Source: an uncultured Lachnospiraceae bacterium
GTDB taxonomy: Bacteria > Bacillota > Clostridia > Lachnospirales > Lachnospiraceae
DNA: 36,428 nt
Direction of reading: 5' to 3'
Assembly (NCBI GenBank): GCA_902785635.1
Contig: CACZZH010000004.1
Coordinates: 1-36,428 of the forward strand
Shown: in pieces, positions 2,177 through 35,068 of the stretch
How positions within the stretch are numbered: position 1 is the first letter of the stretch
Layout of the letters: every line of letters starts with the position of its first letter
Translations under genes and position numbers: made by a program
Notes under the pieces: generated by a model
The model's database searches: none
The model's input: the letters and a program-made list of their open reading frames with translations, nothing else
What the model was told of the DNA's origin: nothing

Positions 2177-4789
2177 ATGCAGAAAATTACGAATGTTGAA
2201 GAACTGGAAAATGCTCTTGCATTGATGCGAAAAGCGCAGGAGCGGTTTGCAACCTATTCGCAGGAACAGGTGGACGCAATATTTAAAGCGGCAGCAATGG
2301 CAGCCAATAAAGCGCGTATCCCCCTGGCGAAAATGGCTGTGGAAGAGACCGGCATGGGCGTGGCAGAAGATAAAGTTATCAAAAATCATTATGCGGCAGA
2401 GTATATCTACAACAAGTATCGTAGCACGAAGACCTGCGGTGTGCTGGAAGAGGATGAAGCTTTTGGCGTGAAAAAGATCGCGTCCCCCATCGGACTGATC
2501 GCGGCAGTTATTCCCACAACGAATCCGACCTCCACGGCGATCTTTAAGACGCTTCTCTGCCTGAAAACAAGGAACGCGATCATCATCAGCCCCCATCCCA
2601 GGGCAAAGAAGTGCACGATCGAGGCAGCACGGATCGTCTACGAGGCAGCTGTCGCTGCAGGTGCACCGGAAAATATCATCGGATGGATCGACGAGCCTTC
2701 ACTGGAGATGACCAACCTGGTCATGAAAGAGAGCGATACCATACTCGCAACAGGCGGTCCCGGCATGGTCCGCGCTGCTTACTCTTCCGGAAAGCCTGCT
2801 CTGGGCGTTGGTGCCGGTAATACTCCGGTAATCATTGACAGTACAGCGGATATCCGGATGGCGGTCAGCTCCATCATTCACTCCAAGACATTTGACAACG
2901 GCATGATCTGTGCTTCTGAGCAGTCTGTCACTGTACTGGCGGATATCTACGATGAGGTAAAGGCGGAATTTGCAAGACGCGGCTGCTATTTCCTGCAGGG
3001 CGAAGAGATCACAAAAGTGGGACAGACCGTGATCATCAACGGCGGCGTCAACGCGAAGATCGTAGGACAGAAAGCACATACCATCGCACAGATGGCTGGT
3101 GTGGATGTTCCTGAAAAGACGAAGATCCTGATCGGTGAAGTGGAAAGCACGGATATCTCCGAGCCTTTCGCGCATGAAAAGCTCTCTCCGGTCCTGGCTA
3201 TGTATAAGGCGGAGACCTTTGAGGAGGCCCTCACCAAAGCGGAAAAACTGGTCATGGACGGCGGCCCCGGACACACCGCTTCTCTGTTCATCAATACGGA
3301 CGAGAAGGAGAAAATGGCGGAGCATGCAAAGCGCATGCACACCTGCCGCATCGTGATCAATATGCCTTCATCACAGGGCGGCATCGGCGATATCTATAAC
3401 TTCTCGCTTACTCCGTCCCTTACTCTGGGATGCGGTTCCTGGGGCGGAAACTCCATCTCCCATAACGTGGGCGTGATGGATCTGCTGAACGTGAAGACGG
3501 TTGCCGAGAGGAGAGAAAATATGCTGTGGCTTCGCATGCCTGAAAAGATTTACTTTAAGAGAGGCTGCATGCCGGTGGCTCTGGATGAACTGGGAACCGT
3601 CATGCACAAAAAGAGATGCTTCATTGTAACCGATACATTCCTTTACAAGAACGGATATGTGAAGCCGATCGAGGACAAGCTTGATGAGATGGGCATCGTA
3701 CATGCCTGCTTCTATGATGTAGCGCCCGATCCCACCCTGCAGTGCGCCCAGGAAGGAACAAAGCAGATGAGCGCTTTCGAACCGGACTGCATTATCGCTC
3801 TGGGCGGTGGATCCGCTATGGATGCTGCCAAGATCATGTGGGTGATGTATGAGCATCCGGATGTAAACTTTGATGATATGGCCATGGATTTCATGGATAT
3901 CCGCAAACGTATCTATACCTTCCCGAAGATGGGTAAGAAGGCTTATTTCGTGGCCATCCCCACTTCGTCCGGTACAGGCTCCGAAGTGACTCCGTTCGCG
4001 ATCATCACTGATGCTTCGACCGGTACAAAGTGGCCGCTGGCAGACTATGAGCTGCTTCCGAATATGGCCATTGTAGATGTAAACAACATGATGAACCAGC
4101 CGAAGGGACTGACCAGCGCGTCCGGTATTGATGTTATGACGCACGCACTGGAGGCGTATGTCTCTGTGATGGCTTCCGACATGACCGATGGAATTGCGCT
4201 GAAGGCTACGAAGCTTGTGTTTGACAACCTTCCTTCTGCTTATATCAACGGCGCGAAAGATCCGAAGGCGAGAGAGCATATGGCCATGGCTTCCACACTG
4301 GCAGGCGAAGCATTTGCCAATGCGTTCCTCGGCATCAACCACAGTATGGCGCATAAGCTTGGTGCTTACCACCATATTCCGCATGGTGTGGCAAATGCCC
4401 TGATCCTGACTTATGTGATGCGCTACAATGCAAATCCGGTTCCCACCAAGATGGGCACCTTCCCGCAGTATGAATATCCGCACACGCTGGAGCGCTACTG
4501 TGATGTAGCCCGTTATAACGGCATCGTGGGCAAGGATGACCAGGAGACCTTTGATCTGCTGATCGAAAAACTGGAAGAACTGAAGAAGACCATCGGAATC
4601 CCGGCTTCCATCAAAGAATGGGGCATCAAGGAGGAAGACTTCCTTGCAACACTGGATGAGATGACGGAGAATGCCTTTAATGACCAGTGTACCGGTGCAA
4701 ACCCGCGCTATCCGCTGATGAGCGAGATCAAAGAACTGTACCTGATGGCTTACTACGGGAAAGATACAAGAAAAGCGGCAATGCTTTAA
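2177..4789 (+). CDS. adhE: Bifunctional acetaldehyde-CoA/alcohol dehydrogenase AdhE
   Basis: This enzyme reduces acetyl-CoA to acetaldehyde and then ethanol, oxidising two NADH, a main redox sink in fermenting anaerobes. It is 870 aa, the full family length. The N-terminal half is an aldehyde dehydrogenase with catalytic Cys245 in the FDNGMICASEQ context. The C-terminal half is an iron-dependent alcohol dehydrogenase with the GGGSAMDAAK nucleotide loop and the metal-binding segments HALEAY and HSMAHKLGAYHHIPHG. The start is the ATG at 2177, preceded by AAAGGAGAT. An in-frame TTG at 2153 has no good ribosome binding site. A phosphotransferase gene starts 11 bp after the stop codon and is probably cotranscribed. 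Confidence 0.97.
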   Translation: MQKITNVEELENALALMRKAQERFATYSQEQVDAIFKAAAMAANKARIPLAKMAVEETGMGVAEDKVIKNHYAAEYIYNKYRSTKTCGVLEEDEAFGVKKIASPIGLIAAVIPTTNPTSTAIFKTLLCLKTRNAIIISPHPRAKKCTIEAARIVYEAAVAAGAPENIIGWIDEPSLEMTNLVMKESDTILATGGPGMVRAAYSSGKPALGVGAGNTPVIIDSTADIRMAVSSIIHSKTFDNGMICASEQSVTVLADIYDEVKAEFARRGCYFLQGEEITKVGQTVIINGGVNAKIVGQKAHTIAQMAGVDVPEKTKILIGEVESTDISEPFAHEKLSPVLAMYKAETFEEALTKAEKLVMDGGPGHTASLFINTDEKEKMAEHAKRMHTCRIVINMPSSQGGIGDIYNFSLTPSLTLGCGSWGGNSISHNVGVMDLLNVKTVAERRENMLWLRMPEKIYFKRGCMPVALDELGTVMHKKRCFIVTDTFLYKNGYVKPIEDKLDEMGIVHACFYDVAPDPTLQCAQEGTKQMSAFEPDCIIALGGGSAMDAAKIMWVMYEHPDVNFDDMAMDFMDIRKRIYTFPKMGKKAYFVAIPTSSGTGSEVTPFAIITDASTGTKWPLADYELLPNMAIVDVNNMMNQPKGLTSASGIDVMTHALEAYVSVMASDMTDGIALKATKLVFDNLPSAYINGAKDPKAREHMAMASTLAGEAFANAFLGINHSMAHKLGAYHHIPHGVANALILTYVMRYNANPVPTKMGTFPQYEYPHTLERYCDVARYNGIVGKDDQETFDLLIEKLEELKKTIGIPASIKEWGIKEEDFLATLDEMTENAFNDQCTGANPRYPLMSEIKELYLMAYYGKDTRKAAML

Positions 4790-23569: not shown

Positions 23570-24280
23570 ATGATAAGAGATGAGATCACAGAAAAACTGT
23601 TTTCGCTGCAGGACAGGGAATATGGCGCGATGCAGAAGAAAATCATTCCTACAGTAGAGAAAGACAGAATAATTGGCGTCAGGACACCGGCACTCAGAAG
23701 CTATGCAAAGGAACTGGTCAGAAATTCGGATCCGGAGGCTTTTTTGACCGCTCTCCCGCATCAGTACTTCGACGAGGACCAGCTGCATGCTTTTGTGATC
23801 TCATTGGAAAAGGATTTTGACAGATGTATAACGCTTGTGGAGAATTTTCTTCCATACATTGACAACTGGGCAACCTGTGATCAGCTTTCTCCGGCAGTTT
23901 TCAAAAAGGAACCGGAGAAGCTTCTGCCATACATTCATTCATGGATCAGATCAGACAGAACATATACGGTCCGCTTTGCCATCGGAATGCTTATGCAGCA
24001 CTTTCTGGGTGATAAGTTTGATATTGAATATCTGAATATGGTTTCGGCAGTGAGATCAGAAGAATACTATATAAATATGATGATCGCCTGGTACTTTGCA
24101 ACTGCGCTTGCAAAACAGTACGGGAGCGTCCTGCCATATTTAGAAAAAAAGGTATTGGATGACTGGACTCACAATAAGGCAATTCAAAAAGCCATAGAAA
24201 GTAACCGGATAACACCTGACCAGAAGGCATATTTGAAAACGCTGAAAAGTCATAACAAGAGAGAGAGGCGGTATTTCTGA
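23570..24280 (+). CDS. DNA alkylation repair protein (AlkD-like HEAT-repeat glycosylase)
   Basis: The 236-aa all-helical protein matches the DNA alkylation repair family (PF08713, AlkD/AlkC superfamily). Its DNWATCDQLSP segment contains the Trp and Asp that align with catalytic residues of Bacillus cereus AlkD, which excises bulky N3/N7-alkyl purines. The start is ATG 23570 after AGGAGG. It is divergent from ogt, so two complementary alkyl-repair activities sit side by side. A true glycosylase function is likely, though some paralogues act otherwise. Confidence 0.85.
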   Translation: MIRDEITEKLFSLQDREYGAMQKKIIPTVEKDRIIGVRTPALRSYAKELVRNSDPEAFLTALPHQYFDEDQLHAFVISLEKDFDRCITLVENFLPYIDNWATCDQLSPAVFKKEPEKLLPYIHSWIRSDRTYTVRFAIGMLMQHFLGDKFDIEYLNMVSAVRSEEYYINMMIAWYFATALAKQYGSVLPYLEKKVLDDWTHNKAIQKAIESNRITPDQKAYLKTLKSHNKRERRYF

Positions 24281-24283
24281 AAC

Positions 24284-24344
24284 TGACATATTGTCAATGG
24301 GATAAAAACACCATGTTGACGCTGCGTCATTGCTTTGATATAAT
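24284..24344 (+). promoter_or_regulatory. tetR promoter with two TetR-type operators
   Basis: TTGACG (24316-24321), a 17-bp spacer and TATAAT (24339-24344) form a near-consensus promoter. Operator candidates are TGACA-TAT-TGTCA (24284-24296) and TGACG-CTG-CGTCA (24317-24329). The second overlaps the -35. Their centres are 33 bp apart. An ACCGCC-GGCA-GGCGGT hairpin (24361-24376) lies in the leader. Confidence 0.75.
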
Positions 24345-24391
24345 GCCGGTAAATCAAAGGACCGCCGGCAGGCGGTGAAGGGAGTGCTGAC

Positions 24392-25030
24392 ATGCCCAAG
24401 GGTTCTGCTGAATTGACAAATGCGCGAAGAGAGGAGATCTTATCTGCCTGTGATAAGCTCTATCAGACGATGAGCTTCAAGGAGATCACACTAAAGGACA
24501 TTGCCGGAGCAACCAGCTTTACGAGAACCTCTATCTATAATTATTTCCAGACCAAGGAGGAGATCTTTCTTGCCCTTATGCAGAAAGAATATGAATGCTG
24601 GGTAAAGGAACTGGATTCCATAACCGAATCTTATACGACCATGAGTGCCGAAGCGTTTTCGGGCGTTTTGGCGCATACGCTTGAAAAGCACGGGCTGCTG
24701 CTTAAACTGCTGAGCATGAATCATTTTGATCTGGAGGCCAACAGCCGTCCGGAATGCCTGCTGGCTTTCAAAACAGCTTATGGTGCGTCTATCGAGGCAG
24801 TGCGCCGCTGCCTTGTAAAATTCTTCCCTGACATGGATGCAAGAGCGCAGCAGGATTTCCTTTACGCTTTCCTGCCGTTCCTGTACGGGATCTATCCATA
24901 TACCACCGTATCAGAAAAGCAGCGCAAGGCGATGGCGGATGCAGGGCTGAATTTCGTGTACATGAGCGTTTATGACATCGCATGTAACTGCATCCTGTCA
25001 CTTCTGAAGGCTGCCGGATATCATAAGTAA
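24392..25030 (+). CDS. TetR-family transcriptional regulator
   Basis: The 212-aa protein has an N-terminal helix-turn-helix (FKEITLKDIAGATSFTRTSIYNYFQTKEEIF, residues about 30-60) typical of TetR repressors and a helical ligand-binding C-terminus. Four TGACA-N3-TGTCA-like palindromes lie before this gene and before the following oxidoreductase operon. It therefore probably represses both itself and that operon. Ligand unknown; an electrophile or redox signal is possible from the regulon content. ATG 24392 follows GAAGGGAG. Confidence 0.88.
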   Translation: MPKGSAELTNARREEILSACDKLYQTMSFKEITLKDIAGATSFTRTSIYNYFQTKEEIFLALMQKEYECWVKELDSITESYTTMSAEAFSGVLAHTLEKHGLLLKLLSMNHFDLEANSRPECLLAFKTAYGASIEAVRRCLVKFFPDMDARAQQDFLYAFLPFLYGIYPYTTVSEKQRKAMADAGLNFVYMSVYDIACNCILSLLKAAGYHK

Positions 25031-25051
25031 GACTGGTACTTCAAAAACGTG

Positions 25052-25099
25052 TTGACATCATGTCAGAAATAGTGCATACTATGTTCTGACACGATGTCA
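25052..25099 (+). promoter_or_regulatory. Promoter and two operators of the AKR/flavodoxin operon
   Basis: TTGACA (25052-25057), a 17-bp spacer and CATACT (25075-25080) make the promoter. Operators TGACA-TCA-TGTCA (25053-25065) and TGACA-CGA-TGTCA (25087-25099) cover the -35 and the start region, with centres 34 bp apart. This matches the arrangement upstream of tetR. Confidence 0.75.
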
Positions 25100-25186
25100 T
25101 TTTTATTCTCGCCACTAAAGACCGCGAGCGAGTCCTGATCTTCAATGTGGATAGATCTGACAATTGTACAGGAGGCTGAGGAAATC

Positions 25187-26224
25187 ATGAAATATATAAA
25201 GCTTGGCAACAGCGACTTGAATGTCTCCCGTATCTGTATGGGCTGCATGGGATTTGGAGATGCCCGGCAGGGCCAGCATGCATGGACGCTGGACGAGGAA
25301 CATTCCCGTGAGATCATCAGGCGGGGGCTGGAACTGGGTGTCAACTTCTATGACACCGCTATCGCCTACCAGTCAGGCACAAGCGAGCAGTATGTAGGAC
25401 GGGCTTTGCGGGATTTCGCCAGGCGGGACGAGGTGGTAGTGGCCACCAAGTTCCTGCCCAGGACGCAGGATGAGATAGAGGCGGGCATCACCGGACAGCA
25501 GCACATTGAGAGGATGCTGGACAAGAGCCTTGAAAACCTGGGTATGGATCATGTCGATCTGTACATCTATCATATGTGGGACTGGCAGACGCCGGTCTGG
25601 GATATCATGGACGGTTTAAATCGTCAGATCCGGGCAGGCAAGGTAAGGTATATCGGTATCTCCAACTGCTTTGCATGGCAGCTGGCGAAGGCCAACGCCA
25701 TTGCGGAAAAAGAGGGATGGTCGAAATTCGTCTCCATTCAGGGCCATTACAACCTGATCTTCCGTGAGGAAGAGCGGGAAATGGTGCCATACTGTGACGA
25801 GGAGAACATCGCCCTCACACCTTACAGCGCACTGGCATCGGGAAGGCTGGCACGTAAGCCGGGAGAGACAAGCGAGCGTCTGGAGAAGGATGCCTACGCA
25901 AAGTTCAAGTACGACGCAACGAAGGATCAGGACGAGGTCATCATCAACCGTGTGGCGCAGATCGCCCGGGAGCGCGATGTGACCATGACGGAGGTTTCGC
26001 TGGCGTGGCTTTTGACGAAAGTCACATCGCCGGTGGTTGGCGCAACAAAGTTTCATCATATTGAAGGTGCAGCGAAGGCTGTGGATCTGATGCTGACCGA
26101 AGAGGAGATCCGATATCTCGAAGAACCCTATGTACCTCATCCGCTGGCAGGGGTCATGGCACAGAACAAACCAGCGAATGCGAAAGATAAACATGTATGG
26201 ACGACCGGAAATCAGAAGATCTGA
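25187..26224 (+). CDS. Aldo-keto reductase
   Basis: The 345-aa (beta/alpha)8 NAD(P)H-dependent reductase has the AKR catalytic tetrad D56, Y61, K88 and H129 (FYDTAIAY, ATKF, YIYHMWDW). The C-terminal part has the cofactor-binding pattern SPVVGATKFHHIEGA. AKRs of this group reduce aldehydes and ketones. Substrate is unknown, although TetR control and a flavodoxin partner suggest detoxification. The start is ATG 25187 after AGGAGG (spacing 11). The flavodoxin gene follows after 16 bp. Confidence 0.9.
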   Translation: MKYIKLGNSDLNVSRICMGCMGFGDARQGQHAWTLDEEHSREIIRRGLELGVNFYDTAIAYQSGTSEQYVGRALRDFARRDEVVVATKFLPRTQDEIEAGITGQQHIERMLDKSLENLGMDHVDLYIYHMWDWQTPVWDIMDGLNRQIRAGKVRYIGISNCFAWQLAKANAIAEKEGWSKFVSIQGHYNLIFREEEREMVPYCDEENIALTPYSALASGRLARKPGETSERLEKDAYAKFKYDATKDQDEVIINRVAQIARERDVTMTEVSLAWLLTKVTSPVVGATKFHHIEGAAKAVDLMLTEEEIRYLEEPYVPHPLAGVMAQNKPANAKDKHVWTTGNQKI

Positions 26225-26240
26225 ACAAGGAGGAACGAAG

Positions 26241-26840
26241 ATGAAGAAGTTAATAACACTGATGATGGTATTCTGCCTGCTGCTGGCAGGGGTTGTACAG
26301 GCTGAGAGCGAACAGGCTGAGAGTGAAATGACCGAGAGCGAACAGGCTGAGAGTGAAATGACCGGAAGTGACACGCTGGTAATCTACTTCTCCTGCACCG
26401 GAACAACAAAGGGTGTGGCGGAGAAGCTGGCCAATGTGACCGGCGCGGATCTGTATGAGATCATTCCGGCTGTGCCCTACACCGAGGAAGATCTGAATTA
26501 CAACGACCGGAGTACCCGCGCCAGCTCCGAACAGGATCATCCGGATACCCGGCCAGAGATCGGCGGTGAAGACGTGGATCTGACCGGTTATAAAACCGTC
26601 TACCTCGGATATCCCATCTGGTGGGGGAAGGAACCGCGTATCCTGTGCACCTTCGTGGAGAGTCATGATTTTACCGGCATGACAGTGATCCCCTTCTGCA
26701 CATCAGGCAGCAGCGGAATCGGCGGGAGCGGCAGCGACCTGGAGAAGCTGGCGGGAACCGGTACATGGCTGGACGGTGAGCGCCACAGCGGTGACATTTC
26801 CGAGGATGAACTGAAGGATTGGGTGGAAGGACTGCAATAA
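26241..26840 (+). CDS. Secreted flavodoxin
   Basis: The 199-aa protein has a signal peptide (MKKLITLMMVFCLLLAGVVQA, likely cleaved after QA), a short acidic repeat linker and a flavodoxin domain. The FMN phosphate loop is SCTGTTKGVAEKLA, and YLGYPIWWGKEPR is a further flavodoxin motif. Flavodoxins are usually cytoplasmic, so an exported one is unusual. It may shuttle electrons outside the membrane. The linker is made by two identical 30-bp repeats. ATG 26241 follows AAGGAGG. It is in an operon with the AKR gene. Confidence 0.87.
   Translation: MKKLITLMMVFCLLLAGVVQAESEQAESEMTESEQAESEMTGSDTLVIYFSCTGTTKGVAEKLANVTGADLYEIIPAVPYTEEDLNYNDRSTRASSEQDHPDTRPEIGGEDVDLTGYKTVYLGYPIWWGKEPRILCTFVESHDFTGMTVIPFCTSGSSGIGGSGSDLEKLAGTGTWLDGERHSGDISEDELKDWVEGLQ
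26304..26363 (+). repeat. Two perfect 30-bp tandem repeats in the flavodoxin linker
   Basis: Copies at 26304-26333 and 26334-26363 are identical, each encoding ESEQAESEMT. Being in frame, copy-number change would lengthen or shorten the linker without a frameshift. Confidence 0.95.
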
Positions 26841-26872
26841 AAAACAATCTCTTTTTGGCTGTTTACAAATAA

Positions 26873-26901
26873 TTGCAAATGATCCTCTGCGTGTGTATTA
26901 T
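26873..26901 (+). promoter_or_regulatory. Promoter of the GH120-like gene
   Basis: TTGCAA (26873-26878), a 17-bp spacer and TATTAT (26896-26901) lie about 50 bp before the start codon. Confidence 0.6.
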
Positions 26902-26952
26902 TAGTTTTGAAACGATATCCTTGCATTAGTAGAACGAAGGAGAGGATCAATT

Positions 26953-28944
26953 ATGGATTGGTATGTAGATCAGAGCGCTGCTTTTCAGGGAGACGGCTCT
27001 AAAGAAAGGCCATTCACCCGTATTTCAGATGCAGCATCCCTTGCACAGCCCGGAGATAAAGTACTGGTTGCGCCGGGTGTATACAGGGAATATGTCGATC
27101 CGGTGAACGCCGGAAGAGAAGATGCAAGAATCGTCTATCAGAGCACCCGGAAGAACGGCGCGGTCATCACAGGTGCCGAACTTCTTGACAACTGGGAAAA
27201 GGAAGGAGCCTTGTGGAAGACCAGCGTGGATAACAGTATCTTCGGCGCATACAATCCTTATACCACGTATGTGTACGGAGACTGGTATTTTGCGGGCAAG
27301 TCCAGGCATACAGGTGCAGTTTTCCTGAATGACAGGATGCTTTATGAGGCTGCATCATATGAAGAGTGCGAAGCCGGTGAGAAGAGCGTCTATTCATGGG
27401 TTCCGGAGGAATCCGTTTACAAATGGTATGCCAGACAGTCGGAAGATGGGAGGAAAACGATCTTCTGGTGTAATTTCCGGGATAAAGACCCCAATGAAGA
27501 GAAGGTAGAATTTACCGTGAGGAGAGAGTGTTTCATGCCCTCGAAGACCGGAGTCGGCTTCATCACGGTATCCGGGTTTAAGGTCGACAAGGCAGCGACG
27601 ACATGGGCTCCGCCCGCGGCGTTTCAGGACTGCATGATCGGTCCGCACTGGTCGAAGGGCTGGATCATAGAAGACTGTGAGATCAGCAATTCCAAGTGTT
27701 CGGGAATCGGCCTCGGCAAATATTATGATCCGGACAATGACCATTATTTTACCACGAAGCATGTCAAAAGTCCGACCCAGATGGAAAGGGATACGGTCTG
27801 CAGAGGGCAGTATCATGGCTGGCTGAAGGAGAAGATCGGAGGACATATTGTCCGCCGCTGTGATATCCATCACTGTGAGCAGGGCGGTATTATCGGACGT
27901 ATGGGAGGCGTATTCAGCCTGATCGAGGACAATCATATTCATCATATCAATAACATGATGGAACTGGGCGGTGCGGAGATCGCCGGAATCAAGATGCATG
28001 CGGCTATCGATGTCGTCATGCGCCGGAATCATATCCATCACTGTACGATGGGTATCTGGTGTGACTGGGAAGCGCAGGGCACACGCATTACGGGCAATCT
28101 GCTGCATGACAACCAGAAGCCCGGTTTCGCGAAACCCCTGCCCGGCGGCATGACCAGTCAGGATATTTTCGTTGAAGTCAGTCATGGTCCGACCCTGATC
28201 GATCACAATCTTCTTTTGTCCGATGTTTCACTGCGTATAGCGACAGAGGGTGTCGCCATGGTACATAACCTGATCTGCGGCGCATTTTCCTTTGTCGGTG
28301 CGGGCACATCATGGAGATATACGCCGTATCATATTCCGCACCGCACGGAGGTCATGGGCTTTATGACGATCCTTCACGGTGATGACAGGTTTTATAACAA
28401 CATCTTTATTCAGAAATGGCCTTCCGAAGACTTTGTCGCGCGCAGTGACAGCCGGGATGAACCGCAGATCGAGAACAGAAAAGCCGGGACAAATGTCTGG
28501 GATGAATATCCGACTTATGAGGAGTGGATCGCTCAGTTTGATATGGATACCAACACTCCGGATATGGCGAAACTGGAGCCGGCACATGAAGGGCACCTTC
28601 CGGTATGGTCAGAGGGAAATGTCTATTTCAACGGAGCTCTTGCGTACCGGGCAGAGGTGAATGGCAAGGTAGATACAGAGCATACAGTAAGCGCAGATGT
28701 TGAACAGACAGACAGCGGATGGGTATTCCGGACAGATCTGTATGATCACATCGGGAAAATGTCCTGCCGGATGATCGACTCGGACATTCTGGGGAAGGCT
28801 TTCGAGCCGGAGCAGCGCTTCGAGAACCCGGATGGAACAGCCATTGTATTTGACACGGATTACTTCGGAAAACACCGTGGGATCCAGGTGATCCCGGGCC
28901 CATTTGTGACACCGGTGAAAGAGGCAGCGGTATTCAGTATTTAA
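26953..28944 (+). CDS. Glycoside hydrolase family 120 beta-xylosidase-like protein
   Basis: The 663-aa protein has a right-handed parallel beta-helix pattern. Its N-terminus and order of motifs match GH120 beta-xylosidases such as XylC of Thermoanaerobacterium saccharolyticum: DGSKERPFTRISDAASLA, then a RHTGAVFLNDR segment, WAPPAAF, PHWSKGWIIEDCEISNSKCSGIGLGK and GGAEIAGIKMHAA. GH120 enzymes use Asp and Glu in a retaining mechanism; GGAEIAG probably holds the Glu. There is no signal peptide, so it should act in the cytoplasm on imported xylo-oligosaccharides. The start is ATG 26953 after GAAGGAGAGG. No xylan transporter is adjacent. Confidence 0.85.
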   Translation: MDWYVDQSAAFQGDGSKERPFTRISDAASLAQPGDKVLVAPGVYREYVDPVNAGREDARIVYQSTRKNGAVITGAELLDNWEKEGALWKTSVDNSIFGAYNPYTTYVYGDWYFAGKSRHTGAVFLNDRMLYEAASYEECEAGEKSVYSWVPEESVYKWYARQSEDGRKTIFWCNFRDKDPNEEKVEFTVRRECFMPSKTGVGFITVSGFKVDKAATTWAPPAAFQDCMIGPHWSKGWIIEDCEISNSKCSGIGLGKYYDPDNDHYFTTKHVKSPTQMERDTVCRGQYHGWLKEKIGGHIVRRCDIHHCEQGGIIGRMGGVFSLIEDNHIHHINNMMELGGAEIAGIKMHAAIDVVMRRNHIHHCTMGIWCDWEAQGTRITGNLLHDNQKPGFAKPLPGGMTSQDIFVEVSHGPTLIDHNLLLSDVSLRIATEGVAMVHNLICGAFSFVGAGTSWRYTPYHIPHRTEVMGFMTILHGDDRFYNNIFIQKWPSEDFVARSDSRDEPQIENRKAGTNVWDEYPTYEEWIAQFDMDTNTPDMAKLEPAHEGHLPVWSEGNVYFNGALAYRAEVNGKVDTEHTVSADVEQTDSGWVFRTDLYDHIGKMSCRMIDSDILGKAFEPEQRFENPDGTAIVFDTDYFGKHRGIQVIPGPFVTPVKEAAVFSI

Positions 28945-29032
28945 TTCATCATTCAAAAAAACATTCCGGGCAAGGCATACACCCCCAACGCGTAAACTCA
29001 CCTGAAAATATATTCATTGTCAAAAGCAGTAT

Positions 29033-29072
29033 AAACCTGTTTGCTATTTTATTATAGCCGACAGGTTTTTTT
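29033..29072 (+). terminator. Rho-independent terminator after the GH120-like gene
   Basis: Stem AAACCTGT / ACAGGTTT encloses an inner GCTAT/ATAGC stem and is followed by a T-run. The remaining intergenic DNA to 29271 is A/T-rich and shows no gene. GATAAT-like -10 words are present before the next gene, without a convincing -35. Confidence 0.7.
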
Positions 29073-29271
29073 ATCTCATAAGAAATTCCGTCGATCATGA
29101 TATCACAGTTTATTCACATCTGATCAAGTGGATAAAAATACATGAAACCGTATATGGCTAATGTAAGGAAAAAACAGGAATCTTCCCAAGGGAATAAACA
29201 AAACAATAATAACAGGAAGAAAACATGATCGAAAGATAATATACATAAAACAGATAATCAGGAGATGAATT

Positions 29272-29514
29272 ATGAATAGAGAATTTGATTTTTTAAACGA
29301 TGAGAAACTGGCAAAGGTTACGGGTGGTGCATTAGGTCCCCACAGAAGAATGGGGGAAAGCATTGCTGATTACATTACAAAGAAAAGAGAAGAAGCAGAA
29401 GCACGTATCCGTAAAGAAGAGGAGGAGCGTATCCGTAAAGAACAGGAAAGGCAGATCGCTATGGCAGAAGTCGAATTAGATGAAGGATTGATGCCGGCAC
29501 TTTTATTTAAGTAA
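29272..29514 (+). CDS. Double-glycine-leader peptide with charged helical core (putative secreted peptide)
   Basis: The 80-aa peptide has a bacteriocin-type leader, FDFLNDEKLAKVTGG, ending in Gly18-Gly19. Hydrophobic residues F5, L8, L13 and V16 occupy the positions (-15, -12, -7, -4) read by PCAT-type ABC exporters. The predicted 61-aa core is a highly charged, mostly helical stretch with an eight-residue repeat (RIRKEEEE / RIRKEQER), encoded by a 15-bp repeat spaced 24 bp apart, and ends LMPALLFK. It has no Cys, so it is not a typical disulfide or lanthipeptide bacteriocin. ATG 29272 follows CAGGAG. No exporter, immunity or modification gene is adjacent. Function unknown. Confidence 0.75.
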   Translation: MNREFDFLNDEKLAKVTGGALGPHRRMGESIADYITKKREEAEARIRKEEEERIRKEQERQIAMAEVELDEGLMPALLFK

Positions 29515-29620
29515 TAACAGGAGACTTGTCCTGAACTGATCTGTCGCCTCGACGTACAAGTCCCGCAAGCGGAACTGATATCCGCCACTTCGTCTGTTGA
29601 TTTTTCGCCGTCCCGGCCGG

Positions 29621-29664
29621 AAAGAAGGATCCAGGGTTTTGATGACGACCCTGGATCCTTCTTT
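29621..29664. terminator. 17-bp perfect-stem bidirectional terminator
   Basis: Arms 29621-29637 and 29648-29664 pair perfectly around a ten-base loop. It lies between two convergent genes and can stop the peptide gene transcript and the reductase transcript. A GACTTGT/ACAAGTC stem lies just upstream (29524-29567). Confidence 0.75.
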
Positions 29665-29691
29665 GCTTTTCAGGCTATGCTTTTTTGTGGT

Positions 29692-31728
29692 TTATGCGAG
29701 AGCCTGTGATAGTGCAGCATTGACTGCCTCTTTGTAACCATCCAGAGTAACGGTGGCTCCGGTGATGACTTCGATATCCAGACCGTTCGTTTCTATGGTC
29801 TGTTTCACGTATTCGGGAAGTGCCACTCCGCCGATGCCTTCGGTTTCGCTCTGATTGATGATCTCGACGTCCGCGATCGCTCCGTCTTTGATGGTAACTT
29901 TGACATCGATCTTGCCGCCGATTCCGGTTCCGGAACCTTCGTATTCACCATCCTTAAAGGTGCCTGTGACATTTTCAGCTGCTGCGCCTGCTTCCTCTGC
30001 CGGTCTGGTGGTTCCTGCAGCGTAGATATCGCCGACAAATGTAGTTACCGGGGTATCTTCGCTCTGGAATTCACCTTTCGCGCGCTTTGCGGCATTTGTG
30101 CCGGATATGCGTCCGTAGACCATGGTCTCGCCCAGGTTTCCGGATCCGTTGTACATGTCACAGAAGATGGAACCCATCTCGCCTGCCTCGAAAAGGCCTT
30201 CGATCGGCATGCCTTCGGTGTTGATGACCTGACCGTATTTGTTCTTTCTGGGACCGCCCTGCGTATTGAAATATGTCGGGCCGATCTTGGTAGCGTAGAA
30301 CGGGCCGGTACGTACAGGAACCATAGTGGCGAAGGGACGGCCGTAGTCGGCGTCTTCACCTGCATCGTAGCGCTTATTATAGGCTTCTACTGCTGCTACA
30401 AAGCGCTCTGTACTGAAATCAGGCGCGTCTTTTCCGCCTTCCGACTGGCGGATGGCTTCAGCCAGATCTTCCAGTGTTTCACCCATCAGGACTTCTCCTG
30501 TCGCCAGCTCTTCCTCATATCCATCGGAGAATGCGCTGACAAGTTTGTTTCCGGCTGCCAGCTGATCCGCATCCTGAACGATATAGGCAGGCAGAGGCAT
30601 CGGGGTGGAGATCCAGCGGCCGCCGATGTAGATACGACCATGACGGGTAGCAGCGGACTCATCCATGAAGCGGTCACCGCCAAGTCCGACATAGATGCCG
30701 CTCGAAGAATTCGGGCCGCCGAACAGACTGACCGTATCAAGATGCGGACGTTTGTGCGTCCAGGTGAAACCTGCGGAGTTAGACATATGCCACAGATCTG
30801 CTCCTGCGCCGAGCGCCATCTTGATACCATCACCGTCATTGTACAGTCCGCCCTGCTGATGGACATACGGCATCTGCAGATAGCTGCAGATCATTTCCTG
30901 ATTGTGCTCAAAACCGCCGCAGGCAAGGACAACGCCGCCGTTTGCCTTGATGCGCATATCGGTTCCTTCTTTATTGATGATAACGCCGATAACCGCGCCG
31001 TCAGCATCTGTGATCAGCTTTTTACCCGGGGAAGCAAACCATACATCGATATCACGGGCTTTGACAGCTTCCTGGCACAGATTGTAGTAGCCACGGTCAA
31101 AACGGGTACCGGTAGCGGTCAGGCACAGGCAGTGTTTGCTGGACGGAATTTCAGGAAACTCTGCCCAGTTATAATACCAGTAATCCTTTCTTCCGATCTT
31201 GTAGGGATCCTCCAGGCTGCCATCGCTGCCATCTGCCAGCTTCCAGTCGGGATTGGTTGCCTCAAAACCGGCTGCCGGATGCTCGGTCGGGGAAATGATC
31301 GCAGGATCGCCGCCCATAGGACCTGTCATCCAGTTATAATTTTCCGCGCAGCCCTCACAATATGCACGAACTGCTTCCGGATCCCAGTTCTGGAATTTGC
31401 CCATAAGGGTCGTCAGATAGTCATACAGCCCCTCGGGATCATCTGTTGCCATGACGAACTGTCCGGAAACAGAGGTATTGCCGCCTTCTGCCCCTTCCGG
31501 CGCTTTTTCGGCCAGAAGAACACTGGCGCCCTGCTCATACGCAGCGACGGCCGCATTGGCACCGGCACCGCCGTATCCCAGGACAACAACATCATATTCC
31601 GCGTCCCACTGCAGTTCATCCGGCGTTTCCTCCGCGCGGGTCTTCATGCCGGGAAGTGTTGCCAGGGCCAGTGTTCCGAGACCGGCCGCTGTTCCTTTGA
31701 GAAAATCTCTTCTTGAAACGTTCTTCAT
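29692..31728 (-). CDS. Tat-exported flavinylated fumarate-reductase-like flavoprotein
   Basis: The 678-aa protein has a Tat signal (SRRDFLKG, residues 5-12), an FAD-dependent succinate dehydrogenase/fumarate reductase-type domain (DVVVLGYGGAGANAAVAA from about residue 46) and a C-terminal FMN_bind domain. Its ITGATVT motif (T659) is the expected threonine for covalent FMN attachment by ApbE. In this family such proteins work outside the membrane as terminal reductases for fumarate or other alkenoate or quinone-like substrates. Substrate is unknown here. It has its own promoter with a MerR operator and is transcribed away from the MerR gene at 31907. Confidence 0.9.
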   Translation of the reverse strand: MKNVSRRDFLKGTAAGLGTLALATLPGMKTRAEETPDELQWDAEYDVVVLGYGGAGANAAVAAYEQGASVLLAEKAPEGAEGGNTSVSGQFVMATDDPEGLYDYLTTLMGKFQNWDPEAVRAYCEGCAENYNWMTGPMGGDPAIISPTEHPAAGFEATNPDWKLADGSDGSLEDPYKIGRKDYWYYNWAEFPEIPSSKHCLCLTATGTRFDRGYYNLCQEAVKARDIDVWFASPGKKLITDADGAVIGVIINKEGTDMRIKANGGVVLACGGFEHNQEMICSYLQMPYVHQQGGLYNDGDGIKMALGAGADLWHMSNSAGFTWTHKRPHLDTVSLFGGPNSSSGIYVGLGGDRFMDESAATRHGRIYIGGRWISTPMPLPAYIVQDADQLAAGNKLVSAFSDGYEEELATGEVLMGETLEDLAEAIRQSEGGKDAPDFSTERFVAAVEAYNKRYDAGEDADYGRPFATMVPVRTGPFYATKIGPTYFNTQGGPRKNKYGQVINTEGMPIEGLFEAGEMGSIFCDMYNGSGNLGETMVYGRISGTNAAKRAKGEFQSEDTPVTTFVGDIYAAGTTRPAEEAGAAAENVTGTFKDGEYEGSGTGIGGKIDVKVTIKDGAIADVEIINQSETEGIGGVALPEYVKQTIETNGLDIEVITGATVTLDGYKEAVNAALSQALA

Positions 31729-31815
31729 GTTCCAGCTTGCTCCTTTCTTTACGAAACAGGCAGACCATTCCGGTTGCTGTTCCGCTGTTGATATAGTACA
31801 TTATATGGTAGATAA

Positions 31816-31846
31816 AATATAAACCCTGTATAAGATACAGGGTCAA
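31816..31846 (-). promoter_or_regulatory. MerR-type promoter of the reductase gene (19-bp spacer) with palindromic operator
   Basis: On the minus strand TTGACC (31846-31841), a 19-bp spacer and TATATT (31821-31816). The spacer holds most of a perfect palindrome, ACCCTGTAT-N3-ATACAGGGT (31823-31843). A 19-bp spacer with an internal palindrome is the hallmark of MerR-activated promoters. A plus-strand promoter for the MerR gene (TTGATA 31788-31793, 17 bp, GATAAA 31811-31816) overlaps it. Confidence 0.85.
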
Positions 31847-31906
31847 TCCATTTCCGGAAGCAAAGATCAAATTGAGCAAAATTGTAAGAAAAGAGAGGGT
31901 GAAATT

Positions 31907-32701
31907 GTGACAATTCACGAATTGGAAAAGCTGACACATGTCAAGGCAGAAACGATCCGCAGTTATCGCAAACAGGGACTCCTTCATCCGCAGATCAATC
32001 CGAAAAACGGGTATTATAATTACTCACCGTCACAGATCCAGGAACTGTTGTTCATCAGAAAACTCAGGGGAATCGGGCTCTCGCTGGATACGATCGCCTA
32101 TACATTTACACACAATGATCTGTCCGGGATCATTGAAAAAGATAAAAATGAACTGGCAAGACTCGATGAACAGATCGAGCAGATGAAACAGCAGCGCCGT
32201 ACACTGGCCATGGCCATTCCCATGCTGGAATCCTTCCAGAACAACAGCCAGGGTCCGTCGATCGAAGAATTCTCACAGGGACGGATCGATGGTTATGATT
32301 TTGTTTCCTGGGAGGACCCTGTGCTGACGTCGTGGATGGAGCATATTGAACTTTTTACCCAGACCCTCTGGATATCCGGAGACTCATTTACCAGCCGGCA
32401 GATGCCCGCTCAGATTCCGGTGAAGGTGGGCTTCGGTACATTCACCCCGATTTTCGAGGAATATCAGCTGACTGTCCCTGAGCACGCGGTCCATTGTCCT
32501 GCGGGCAGGTATGTGACCGGCGAGGTGGTGCTGCATGACCTGGAATACATTGACAGGGAACAGCTGGAGCCTATGCGTGATCTGATCAGAAAGAATTCGA
32601 TCCGAAGCGTATCGGATACGACAGGCTTCCTGTTCCGTATCGAGCAGAAGGGAAATGAACAGAAGTTCACATTCCGGATCCGGGCGAGGGTGGAAGAGTG
32701 A
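31907..32701 (+). CDS. MerR-family regulator with GyrI-like effector domain
   Basis: The 264-aa protein has an N-terminal MerR winged helix-turn-helix (TIHELEKLTHVKAETIRSYRKQGLL), a coiled-coil dimerisation helix (about 85-110) and a C-terminal GyrI-like effector domain. It is read from GTG 31907 after AGAGAGGG. An AATTGT-G-ACAATT palindrome (31903-31915) sits over the start codon and may serve autoregulation. The effector domain suggests a small-molecule ligand rather than a metal, since there is no Cys motif. It probably activates the divergent reductase gene. Confidence 0.88.
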   Translation: MTIHELEKLTHVKAETIRSYRKQGLLHPQINPKNGYYNYSPSQIQELLFIRKLRGIGLSLDTIAYTFTHNDLSGIIEKDKNELARLDEQIEQMKQQRRTLAMAIPMLESFQNNSQGPSIEEFSQGRIDGYDFVSWEDPVLTSWMEHIELFTQTLWISGDSFTSRQMPAQIPVKVGFGTFTPIFEEYQLTVPEHAVHCPAGRYVTGEVVLHDLEYIDREQLEPMRDLIRKNSIRSVSDTTGFLFRIEQKGNEQKFTFRIRARVEE

Positions 32702-32745
32702 ACAGGATTTTTTCAGCTGCCATAGTAAAAACGCGGGAGTCATTA

Positions 32746-32793
32746 TTGACATAAGTCAGGAACATGCAGTATAATAATTTTTGACAAATGTCA
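32746..32793 (+). promoter_or_regulatory. Promoter and two similar operator-like palindromes before the DUF134-NifX gene
   Basis: TTGACA (32746-32751), an 18-bp spacer and TATAAT (32770-32775) form a strong promoter. TGACATAAGTCA (32747-32758) overlaps the -35, and TGACAAATGTCA (32782-32793) lies just before the ribosome binding site. They are 35 bp apart and similar, as expected for an autoregulator. Confidence 0.65.
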
Positions 32794-32807
32794 GAAAGGA
32801 GAGAGCT

Positions 32808-33536
32808 ATGCCAAGACCAGTAAGATGCAGGAGAATCGAGCATATGCCGGTTTACCGCAGTTTCTCCCCTGATGATGTAACGGCACCCGAGAGTATCAGG
32901 ATGACGGTGGATGAGTATGAAGCATTGCGGCTTCTGGATGCTGAGGGATTGACGCAGGAAGGCTGCGCGGACAGAATGAATGTCTCCCGGACAACCGTCA
33001 CAGCGATTTATGACAGCGCGAGGAAGAAGATCGCAGATGTGCTTGTCCACGGAAAGCGCCTGTTGATCTCGGGGGGCTGCTGTGAGTTTGAACCGATAGT
33101 ACTTGATCAGATCATCATGGAGAAAGGGAGCGGTATAATGAGAATCGCAGTTACCTATGAAAACGGAGAGGTTTTTCAGCATTTCGGACATTCCGAACAG
33201 TTCAAGCTGTACGACGTGGAGAACGGAAAAATCGTTGGTGAGCAGGTCGTCGACACCAACGGCAGCGGGCATGGTGCTTTGGCCGGGTTTCTTCAGGCAG
33301 CGAAGGTTGATGCTTTGATTTGCGGCGGTATCGGTATGGGCGCACAAATGGCATTATCGGATGCAGGGATCAGGCTGTATGCCGGGGTGCAGGGATCTGC
33401 GGATGAGGCGGCAAAGGCACTCACGGAAGGAAGGCTGGATTATGACCCGGACGCCCGGTGTGATCATCATGGACATCATAATGACGGTGACTGCAGTCAC
33501 GACCACTGTGCAGAGCATCACTGCCACGGGAATTGA
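32808..33536 (+). CDS. DUF134 (UPF0251) helix-turn-helix / NifX-type cluster-binding fusion with His/Cys tail
   Basis: The 242-aa protein starts at ATG 32808 after AAAGGAGAG. Residues 1-100 form a DUF134/UPF0251 domain (MPRPVRCRRIE start; HTH in LTQEGCADRMNVSRTTVTAIYDSARKK). Residues 111-212 form a NifX/NifB-type dinitrogenase iron-molybdenum cofactor-binding domain (MRIAVTYENGEVFQHFGHSEQFKLYDVENG). Residues 218-242 are a metal-binding tail with nine His and four Cys among 25 residues. It may sense a metal or Fe-S cluster and regulate its own promoter. Nitrogen fixation is not implied, as such proteins occur in many anaerobes without nitrogenase. Confidence 0.87.
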   Translation: MPRPVRCRRIEHMPVYRSFSPDDVTAPESIRMTVDEYEALRLLDAEGLTQEGCADRMNVSRTTVTAIYDSARKKIADVLVHGKRLLISGGCCEFEPIVLDQIIMEKGSGIMRIAVTYENGEVFQHFGHSEQFKLYDVENGKIVGEQVVDTNGSGHGALAGFLQAAKVDALICGGIGMGAQMALSDAGIRLYAGVQGSADEAAKALTEGRLDYDPDARCDHHGHHNDGDCSHDHCAEHHCHGN

Positions 33537-33703
33537 GCTATGGCAAAAATAACACTTATTCAATTATGGTGCATTGGAAGAATTCGGTCTCCGGGATGAT
33601 CATTTTGAAGAGGAGGGGCGAATTCGAGCACTCGACTGCGGCTTTTTCAGAAAAGTATCCGGAAGTAGAGAGAATTTAAAGAGTAAAGGAAGAAATAACG
33701 AAT
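33537..33703 (+). other. Intergenic stretch with a possible decayed coding remnant
   Basis: No clear gene. One frame stays open from about 33561 to 33713 (GALEEFGLRDDHFEEEGRIRALD and on) but has no start with a ribosome binding site. Short ATG frames of 19 and 27 codons occur. The composition is gene-like, so it may be a degraded gene or chance. I do not recognise it. Confidence 0.25.
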
Positions 33704-35068
33704 ATGTGGGCTGAAGAAAGCATAATGTATCAGATCTATACACTGGGATTCTGCGGAGCACCGTTTGATAATCCGTTGGAGCCGTCAGCTGCTTTGAACC
33801 AGGAAAACATGGCCGCTGCCGGAAGAGGTGAAGAAGACCTGCACCGTATCCTCAAGGTGCTCGATTGGATTCCGCATCTTAAGAGGCTTGGTGTCACTGC
33901 TGTATACTTTAATCCTCTGTTTGAGTCGGATTCCCATGGCTACAATACCCGGGATTACCGGAGAGTAGACAACCGTCTCGGAACAAACGAGGACTTCCGC
34001 GTGGTATGTGACAAACTGCATGATGCAGGGATCCGGGTGGTGCTGGATGCTGTCTTTAACCATGTCGGCAGAGGTTTTACGCAGTTCCGGGATGTCCTGC
34101 AGCGCAAGTGGGAGAGTCCCTTCAAGGACTGGTTCCATATCAGCTTTGACGGAAACTCCAATTATAATGACGGCCTCTGGTATGAAGGCTGGGAAGGTCA
34201 TTACGATCTGGTCAAGCTGAACCTGCGCAACGAAGCAGTGATCAATTACCTTTTGGATACGGTGGGATTCTGGACGAAGGAATTTGGCATAGACGGGCTC
34301 CGGCTTGACGTTGCCTACCTTCTGGATCGCGATTTCATTCGCCGGCTTCGTGCGTATACGGATGACCTGAAGCCGGAGTTCTATCTGATCGGAGAGATCC
34401 TGGGGGGCGATTATAAGACGATCTGCGGGGAGGGAATGCTCCATTCCGCAACGAACTACGAGTGTTATAAGGGACTCTTCTCCAGTTTCAACAGCATGAA
34501 CATGTTTGAGATCAATCATTCTCTGATGCGCCAGTTCGGCAAAGATCCCTGGTGCCTGTACCGCGGCATGCATCTGATGAGTTTTGTGGATAACCATGAC
34601 GTCACAAGGGTGGCCAGTATCCTGCAGAATCCAAATCATCTGCCACTGATCTATGCGCTTGCTTTCGGCATGCCCGGATACCCCTGCATTTATTATGGAA
34701 GCGAGTGGGGGGCCAGGGGAGAGAAAAAAGACGGTGATCCGGCACTTCGCCTCAGCTATGACGAGCCGCAGTGGAACGAACTGACTGAGTGGATCGCAGC
34801 GCTCGCAAAGGCGAAGAGCGGTTCGCAGGCCCTCTGCTACGGAGATTTTACCAGCATCGTACTCACCAATAAGCAATGCATTTTTGAGAGAAAGAGCGAG
34901 CATGAACGTGTTCTGGTGGCAATTAATGCGGATGAGAACGAATACGTCGCACATTTTGATGCCGGGTGCGGCACCGCGATCGACCTGATCAGCGGGAAGA
35001 TGCATGATTTCGGCGGCGGCTCGCACCTCGCACCGTACAGTGCCGCATTCTGGAAGATGGAGCGCTGA
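33704..35068 (+). CDS. GH13 alpha-amylase-family enzyme
   Basis: The 454-aa protein has all four GH13 signatures. Region I is DAVFNHV (D115), region II GLRLDVA (nucleophile D202), region III IGEILG (acid/base E231) and region IV FVDNHD (D299). It has no signal peptide or starch-binding domain, so it is likely a cytoplasmic alpha-glucosidase or cyclomaltodextrinase-like enzyme. Exact substrate is not certain. ATG 33704 is preceded by GGAAG at about 12 bases; ATG 33725 is an alternative. No sugar transporter is adjacent. Confidence 0.85.
   Translation: MWAEESIMYQIYTLGFCGAPFDNPLEPSAALNQENMAAAGRGEEDLHRILKVLDWIPHLKRLGVTAVYFNPLFESDSHGYNTRDYRRVDNRLGTNEDFRVVCDKLHDAGIRVVLDAVFNHVGRGFTQFRDVLQRKWESPFKDWFHISFDGNSNYNDGLWYEGWEGHYDLVKLNLRNEAVINYLLDTVGFWTKEFGIDGLRLDVAYLLDRDFIRRLRAYTDDLKPEFYLIGEILGGDYKTICGEGMLHSATNYECYKGLFSSFNSMNMFEINHSLMRQFGKDPWCLYRGMHLMSFVDNHDVTRVASILQNPNHLPLIYALAFGMPGYPCIYYGSEWGARGEKKDGDPALRLSYDEPQWNELTEWIAALAKAKSGSQALCYGDFTSIVLTNKQCIFERKSEHERVLVAINADENEYVAHFDAGCGTAIDLISGKMHDFGGGSHLAPYSAAFWKMER

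Follow-up and report, generated by a model that had tools for sequence, protein, structure and literature searches.

Background

By what route, under which control and to what end would a small protein with a double-glycine (Gly-Gly) leader leave the cell, when no exporter gene lies beside its own? The question is raised by a gene (the window gene) in a stretch of 36,428 nucleotides from an uncultured Lachnospiraceae bacterium, the whole of which is called the window here. Gly-Gly-leader genes without an adjacent exporter are easily left unexplained or labelled bacteriocins. As far as the excerpts of PMC6959990 and PMC6363468 go, PCAT substrates require a Gly-Gly (or Gly-Ala/Ser) motif with hydrophobic residues at positions -4, -7 and -12; PMC6959990, again in part, gives the consensus L(-12)xxxE(-8)L(-7) and reports PCAT1 to be dependent on L(-7) and L(-12) as well. 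LahT, the AMS/PCAT exporter of Lachnospiraceae bacterium C6A11 (PDB 6MPZ), is described in the same excerpt of PMC6363468.

The promoter boxes, the leader geometry, the ribosome-binding site (RBS), the downstream hairpin and a LahT-type exporter encoded in the genome, taken together, make it likely that the window peptide is one cargo of a dispersed, sigma-controlled PCAT secretion regulon, a reading to which we assign a probability of about 0.65. The kind of system is probably a known one, that of PCAT-exported Gly-Gly small proteins, here with cargos that are dispersed and under putative sigma control.

The window gene and its product

Both the frame and the leader described in an earlier sequence-only reading of the window are confirmed (Table 1): Phe(-15), Leu(-12), Leu(-7) and Val(-4) precede the Gly-Gly pair, and the general pattern of PCAT substrates is present. 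Position -8 is Lys, against Glu in the consensus; we treat Glu(-8) as a consensus position and not as a strict requirement for PCAT substrates. In the comparison with Gly-Gly-leader profiles that the sequence-only reading had proposed, the leader resembles the class II bacteriocin models PF10439 and TIGR01847, with 16.2 and 13.7 bits where the curated cut-offs are 27.1 and 15.7. When the whole genome is searched with TIGR01847, the window leader is third among the eight matches listed, behind two siblings on contig C152, and an NCBIfam scan of the window peptide (E<=10) returned TIGR01847 only, with no nitrile-hydratase or Nif11 leader model.

Table 1. Features of the window gene and its flanks, in window coordinates
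Feature	Position	Strand	Basis or remark
80-aa ORF	29272-29514	+	sequence; frame as in the sequence-only reading
RBS AGGAG, 7 nt 5' of the ATG	29260-29264	+	sequence
Double-glycine leader, 19 residues, MNREFDFLNDEKLAKVTGG	29272-29328	+	sequence; PF10439 and TIGR01847 both under cut-off
Charged helical core, 61 residues and stop codon; predicted mature start ALGPHRRM	29329-29514	+	sequence, AlphaFold2 single-sequence model
Candidate ECF-sigma promoter: GTGGAT (29128-29133), 15-nt spacer, CGTATA (29149-29154)	29128-29154	+	exact motif match
Terminator-like hairpin: 18-pair stem (29621-29664), T-containing tail	29621-29671	+	between the window gene and the convergent flavoprotein gene

The core had been called atypical (highly charged, free of Cys, poor in Gly, with an internal octad repeat and a hydrophobic end), and this description holds in every part: there are no Cys and three Gly, 28 of the 61 residues are charged (13 E, 8 R, 5 K, 2 D; net -2), the octads RIRKEEEE and RIRKEQER occupy residues 45-60 of the protein, and the tail reads LMPALLF. 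AlphaFold2, run on the single sequence, predicts one long helix over residues 31-70, with a mean pLDDT of 90-95 at residues 31-60 and a low pTM (0.36) for the whole model; residues 20-37 are amphipathic (moment 0.51). The Gly-Gly leader, the weak leader-only similarity to PF10439 and TIGR01847 and the amphipathic stretch would fit a species-specific class II bacteriocin, or another antimicrobial helix, that leaves through the same PCAT and whose immunity is unrecognised or unlinked. The same profile scores, both under cut-off, and the composition of the core (its high charge, its negative net charge, the lack of Cys and the few Gly) speak against it. So do the surroundings, as no small partner or immunity ORF is apparent by eye at 29000-29690; the window holds no C39 exporter, which bears out the statement that no exporter is adjacent. 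No modification enzyme or RiPP maturase was seen by eye beside the gene.

A candidate promoter motif shared by dispersed Gly-Gly genes

The candidate promoter stands 144 nt upstream of the window-gene ATG, on the same strand. In 400 simulated Markov windows an exact GTGGAT-N14/15-CGTATA turns up at an expected rate of 0.0075 per window, and the site here is the sole match in the real window even with up to two mismatches, a looseness at which 2.19 matches would be expected by chance. Across this genome (G000) the motif occurs at 12 sites, against none for a reversed-pattern control, which gave a single site (in G001) over the 13 genomes of the genus. Looser boxes (GTGGA-N14-18-CGTATA) match 25 sites, their control 9, and such looser sites are therefore often due to chance.

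Seven of the 12 exact sites lie upstream of ORFs with Gly-Gly leaders: the window gene (contig C4) and those at C152:3282, C79, C58, C1:13235, C24 and C210. Behind the remaining five are encoded two peptides, one hydrophobic and of 71 aa, the other of 40 aa, and three proteins: one with a thioredoxin fold and one of 220 aa, both with signal-like starts, and one of 145 aa. The search for siblings had started from the other Gly-Gly leaders of the genome, on C152 (two copies), C79, C58, C1 and C233. Thirteen Gly-Gly genes are counted in G000, namely 11 that match the leader profile at E<=0.01, a LysM gene on C176 (E 0.27) and the window gene; the motif is present within about 260 nt of nine of them, including, by eye, the variants at C152:7938 (GTGGAC) and C1:6964 (TTGGAT), and was not found within that distance of the other four (C160, C1:21370, C233, C176). 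Motif and start are 110-169 nt apart in the siblings, a range that takes in the 144 nt of the window gene. The C152, C79 and C58 genes have in common an upstream arrangement of GTGGAT ... CGTATATA ... ATGTAAACAAA (one C152 copy with GTGGAC); the window gene, from 29128, reads GTGGAT-N15-CGTATATG-GCTA-ATGTAA. A full-length promoter matrix built from eight sibling sites does not rank the window site within its top six for the window, a failure that stands even though the matrix leans on the spacer and downstream sequence of near-duplicate genes.

The weak point of the case is that the window leader fits the general Gly-Gly pattern and not the profile of its siblings. Profile A1, built from eight sibling leaders (seven of this genome, one of G002), did not find the window gene at E<=1, and when scored directly the window leader obtains 2.4 bits; of 2,000 shuffled versions of the protein, about 110 score better.

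Is the window gene real, and does it have relatives?

Searches with the window peptide returned no homologue in its own genome (itself and two weak matches, E 0.03 and 0.3), in the 12 other genomes of the genus (one weak match, E 0.08) or in 298 other genomes of the family (three weak matches, E 0.003-0.004). Pattern-based searches of a genome contig collection and a viral contig collection gave 218 and 45 pattern matches, none of them confirmed, and no homologue was found among plasmids and phages. Six weak matches were set aside: L004, L007 and L009 are charged or alanine-rich stretches inside larger frames, and L005, L006 and L008 are fragments of a single other frame and cross stop codons; none has a Gly-Gly leader. 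The sequence-only reading had looked to homologues that keep the leader for a decision, a question that loses its object when homologues are found nowhere in the genomes, contigs, plasmids and phages searched. From the window alone it could not be seen that the gene is no lone system and has its promoter motif in common with other, dispersed Gly-Gly-leader genes: the window gene is an orphan by sequence and not by regulation. The absence of homologues would also fit the fast evolution of a bacteriocin.

It is conceivable that the frame is a chance or decaying ORF whose product is not exported, with leader and motif brought together by coincidence. The lack of homologues is in keeping with this explanation, as is the mismatch between the leader and the sibling profile. 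Against it, simulation with 150 first-order Markov windows gives an average of only 0.02 starts per window that have an RBS, Gly-Gly spacing and hydrophobic residues at -15, -12, -7 and -4, the exact motif is rarer still, and the two lie on one strand at a distance within the sibling range. The terminator-like hairpin downstream also argues against it: positions 29612-29680 fold with -36.8 kcal/mol (z -6.23), and none of 200 shuffles folds as well. A simple terminator scan does not list the hairpin at 29621-29671, and an Rfam scan of 28900-29750 gave no match. Were the frame not transcribed, the sequence-only reading would fall; the gene does have a promoter motif of the regulon type and this terminator-like hairpin. 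On balance, with a strong RBS, a Gly-Gly leader, a charged helical core and the hairpin in line, the window ORF looks real, and we regard a coincidental frame as improbable. The window has one further start of this kind, at 3767 (MSAFEPDCIIALGGG, 150 aa), which appears to be part of another coding region.

Exporter and ECF sigma factor on contig C46

The genome-wide search for C39 peptidases gave one match (C46:2557-2946), inside a 741-aa exporter (ABC1), in an assembly that is 79% complete and from which a second C39 exporter could be missing. The sequence-only reading would have been undone by a genome lacking any PCAT exporter; this genome has one, with 89 of the 132 residues of its peptidase domain identical to the characterised LahT protease (PDB 6MPZ), and an exporter for the window peptide thus probably exists. 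The operon runs HlyD-like, ABC1 (the PCAT), ABC2, ECF sigma. ABC1 scores 906.4 bits against TIGR03796 (cut-off 853.3), the TIGR03797-type ABC2 falls just short of its cut-off (689.1 against 709.4 bits), and the short HlyD-like protein stays far below (29.9 against 156.2 bits). Gene kinds and the ABC1 score recall the NHLM/NHLP export cassette (TIGR03794/03796/03797), as outlined in the excerpt of PMC2887384. The differences are that ABC2 and the HlyD-like protein lie under their cut-offs, that the window peptide has no nitrile-hydratase or Nif11 leader, and that no RiPP maturase is present among the ten C46 proteins scanned.

The frame, the leader, the motif and the presence and co-occurrence of the parts can be read directly from the DNA, and the following route would connect them. 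The ECF sigma factor, co-operonic with the LahT-type exporter, would recognise the dispersed GTGGAT-N14/15-CGTATA promoters (the pairing of factor and motif being our proposal) and would drive transcription of the window gene from the site upstream of it. Leu(-12), Leu(-7) and Val(-4) of the leader would dock into the C39 peptidase, the leader would be cut after Gly-Gly, and the charged helix would be exported, probably unmodified.

The motif is absent in front of the PCAT operon itself; a near match there (one mismatch) faces a divergent 70-aa gene, whose counterpart in G002 has the exact motif. This gene (L002:1522-1734, minus strand; its G002 counterpart is in L058 and L079, one contig) encodes a stretch that resembles a leader but lacks Gly-Gly (LSDNEIELVNAAQG / LSDDDAEMVSAARG), and it has no Pfam or NCBIfam match; that its product acts as a pseudo-substrate binding the C39 domain is speculation.

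Distribution within the genus

Among the 13 genomes of the genus that were analysed, at least three copies of the motif are found only in G000 (12), G002 (11), G012 (5) and G007 (3), the three-copy threshold having been picked after the counts were known; in G007, a single site of the three is promoter-like to the eye. The other nine genomes lack the motif, apart from G008 and G009 with a single site each, the same coding site in both. The ECF sigma factor (E<=1e-30) and the TIGR03796 exporter (E<=1e-150) occur in exactly the same four genomes, the G007 exporter being under the curated cut-off. Leader-profile matches at E<=0.01 number 11 in G000, two in G002, two in G007 and one in G012, with none in the remaining nine; since the profile was built from G000 and G002 sequences, only G007 and G012 count as independent for the leaders. 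At E 0.01-1, five other genomes have one match each, and G010, which has no TIGR03796 match, encodes a 115-aa ORF (L091, G010:C416; E 0.34) with a Gly-Gly leader that looks good by eye (ELSEDELEAVSGG). Fisher's exact test on the co-occurrence gives p 0.0014, a value that assumes independent genomes, whereas these are related and several are incomplete. The co-occurrence of motif, sigma factor, exporter and leaders is support for a regulon, not proof of one.

The order HlyD-like, ABC1, ABC2, ECF sigma is found in G000, in G002 (= L079) and in the metagenome-assembled loci L074, L075 and L076, where it was recognised, as in all cases outside G000, by eye from the N-termini; no motif occurs in L074, L075 or L076 within 14-20 kb of locus sequence. 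In G012, exporter and sigma factor lie on two 3.2-kb contigs, with the sigma gene directly 3' of an ABC2 gene (L073), and an assembly break may account for the split. L077 has both on one contig with other genes between them. In G007 they are on different contigs, and no exporter stands beside the sigma gene in L078 (= G007). These seven named loci come from Lachnospiraceae, Clostridiales or Blautia, six of them from MAGs, and L073, L078 and L079 are the same contigs as G012:C201, G007:C119 and G002:C4, hence not independent of the genus set. Because three of the loci repeat genus genomes and because sigma factor and exporter are unlinked in G007, we hold both the cargo reading and the wider pathway set out below with slightly less confidence.

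Function and comparison with known systems

What the exported helix would do is best approached through the siblings. A C152 sibling matches SH3_3 (E 1e-5), with 26 bits against a cut-off of 27, and a second sibling family, with members in G000, G002 and G007, has a predicted small beta fold with weak SH3 resemblance. A structure search with the SH3-like sibling model (A2, seven rows, mean pLDDT 77.9) found no PDB match at E<=0.001: its first row is a Tudor-domain entry (E 0.09), SH3 entries reach E 0.26 at best, and lower rows include the SlpA teichoic-acid-binding domain and NlpC entries, which we take to carry bacterial SH3 domains. We therefore term these siblings SH3-like only, mainly from the C152 match to SH3_3. 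The C176 sibling (L110) combines a Gly-Gly leader (leader-profile E 0.27) with a clear LysM domain (E 1.4e-14), and is without a motif in the 260 nt searched. In the C1:21370 sibling, 48 of 56 core residues are identical to those of its counterpart L099 in G012.

Such domains in some siblings, rather than any property of the window peptide, suggest that the cargos are wall-directed small proteins and not classical bacteriocins. We prefer a wall-related role because some siblings have SH3-like or LysM (wall-binding) domains and other motif genes have signal-like starts; the exported helix would act at or beyond the cell wall, associated with the envelope and unlike a classical bacteriocin. This function, a wall-associated or extracellular helix, is held less firmly than the cargo reading, with a bacteriocin or a signal as less likely alternatives. 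For the bacteriocin, the SH3-like and LysM siblings and the core conserved between two species are further counter-evidence, and we consider it unlikely, if the foremost of the rivals. The other candidate, a ComC-like secreted signalling peptide cleaved and exported by the PCAT, has against it that some siblings are wall-domain proteins, that no histidine kinase or response-regulator gene is seen by eye beside the window gene among the ORFs of 24000-34500, and that a core of 61 residues is long for a pheromone. Its small size would suit such a role, and streptococcal Gly-Gly peptides include signals (PMC7595303 and PMC7018657, each in excerpt); we give it an even slimmer chance than a coincidental frame.

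Returning to a cargo of the sigma-controlled PCAT regulon, LahT is among the closest known systems. The contacts that LahT makes with its leaders (Val-4, Leu-7, Leu-12) have their equivalents in the window leader, the C39 peptidase is of the same type, and LahT tolerates diverse cores; its nine precursors, LahA1-9, cluster with the transporter in a lanthipeptide operon (contacts, tolerance and clustering from the excerpt of PMC6363468), whereas here the cargos are dispersed, the window core is free of Cys and beside its gene no modification enzyme is seen. In function, the abstract of PMC4997328 offers a likeness in EbfG1-4 and PteB of Synechococcus elongatus, where several small Gly-Gly-motif proteins are secreted with the aid of a C39 transporter and have a role in biofilms rather than in killing; the likeness is one of description only, the phylum is unrelated and that abstract names no ECF sigma control. 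With class II bacteriocins (PF10439, TIGR01847) the window gene shares the leader pattern, and differs in scoring under cut-off, in its anionic charged helix, and in having no clustered exporter and no apparent immunity gene. The window system would work like EbfG/PteB secretion with a LahT-like exporter and, by the tests made, is a member of neither.

More broadly, and falling somewhat short of an even chance in our estimate, an ECF sigma factor that co-occurs with a LahT-type PCAT may turn on dispersed, species-variable, unmodified small proteins (SH3-like, LysM, charged single helices) for delivery to the wall or the cell's surroundings; the window gene would be a recent, lineage-specific cargo. 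If this is true, the system would be a separate branch of export alongside Sec, dedicated to small proteins bound for the wall, rather than a bacteriocin system. The sequence-only reading had proposed the gene as a candidate for an undescribed system, and we think that it was right; no description of the proposed regulon was recognised in titles and abstract beginnings of the open-access literature, and the excerpt of the rumen bacteriocin survey PMC13289728 does not mention one. The shared motif links several Gly-Gly genes of the kind that lack a neighbouring exporter to a single exporter and a single sigma factor, and offers a route to further cargos in a genome. It also opens to test the idea that PCATs of these Clostridia work for an envelope programme, and it yields a prediction of the uncharacterised small ORFs whose products are secreted.

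Neighbouring genes and other motif sites

On either side of the window gene lie larger frames. Upstream, 26953-28944 (plus strand) encodes a 663-aa protein with, by eye, the look of a right-handed beta-helix, and with weak NosD-like and surface-protein matches only. Downstream, 29692-31728 (minus strand) encodes an FAD-binding flavoprotein of the flavocytochrome c/fumarate-reductase kind with a twin-arginine-like start (by eye); the best 25 of its 58 NCBIfam matches are all under cut-off.

Elsewhere, the motif or a variant of it precedes sequences of other kinds. In L038 (G000:C154; GTGGAA variant) and L067 (G012:C147) a short stretch without an obvious ORF comes after it, alike in both species and repeated in L038. 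A GTGGAC variant lies 5' of a class-V aminotransferase (L039, G000:C181; E 1.2e-84) with a signal-like N-terminus. Finally, a peptide of 40-42 aa, alike in two species, is encoded 3' of the motif in L035 (G000:C59) and L063 (G012:C90), where it ends WGGWYGFYPINCY / WGGWYGLSPLGCCY.
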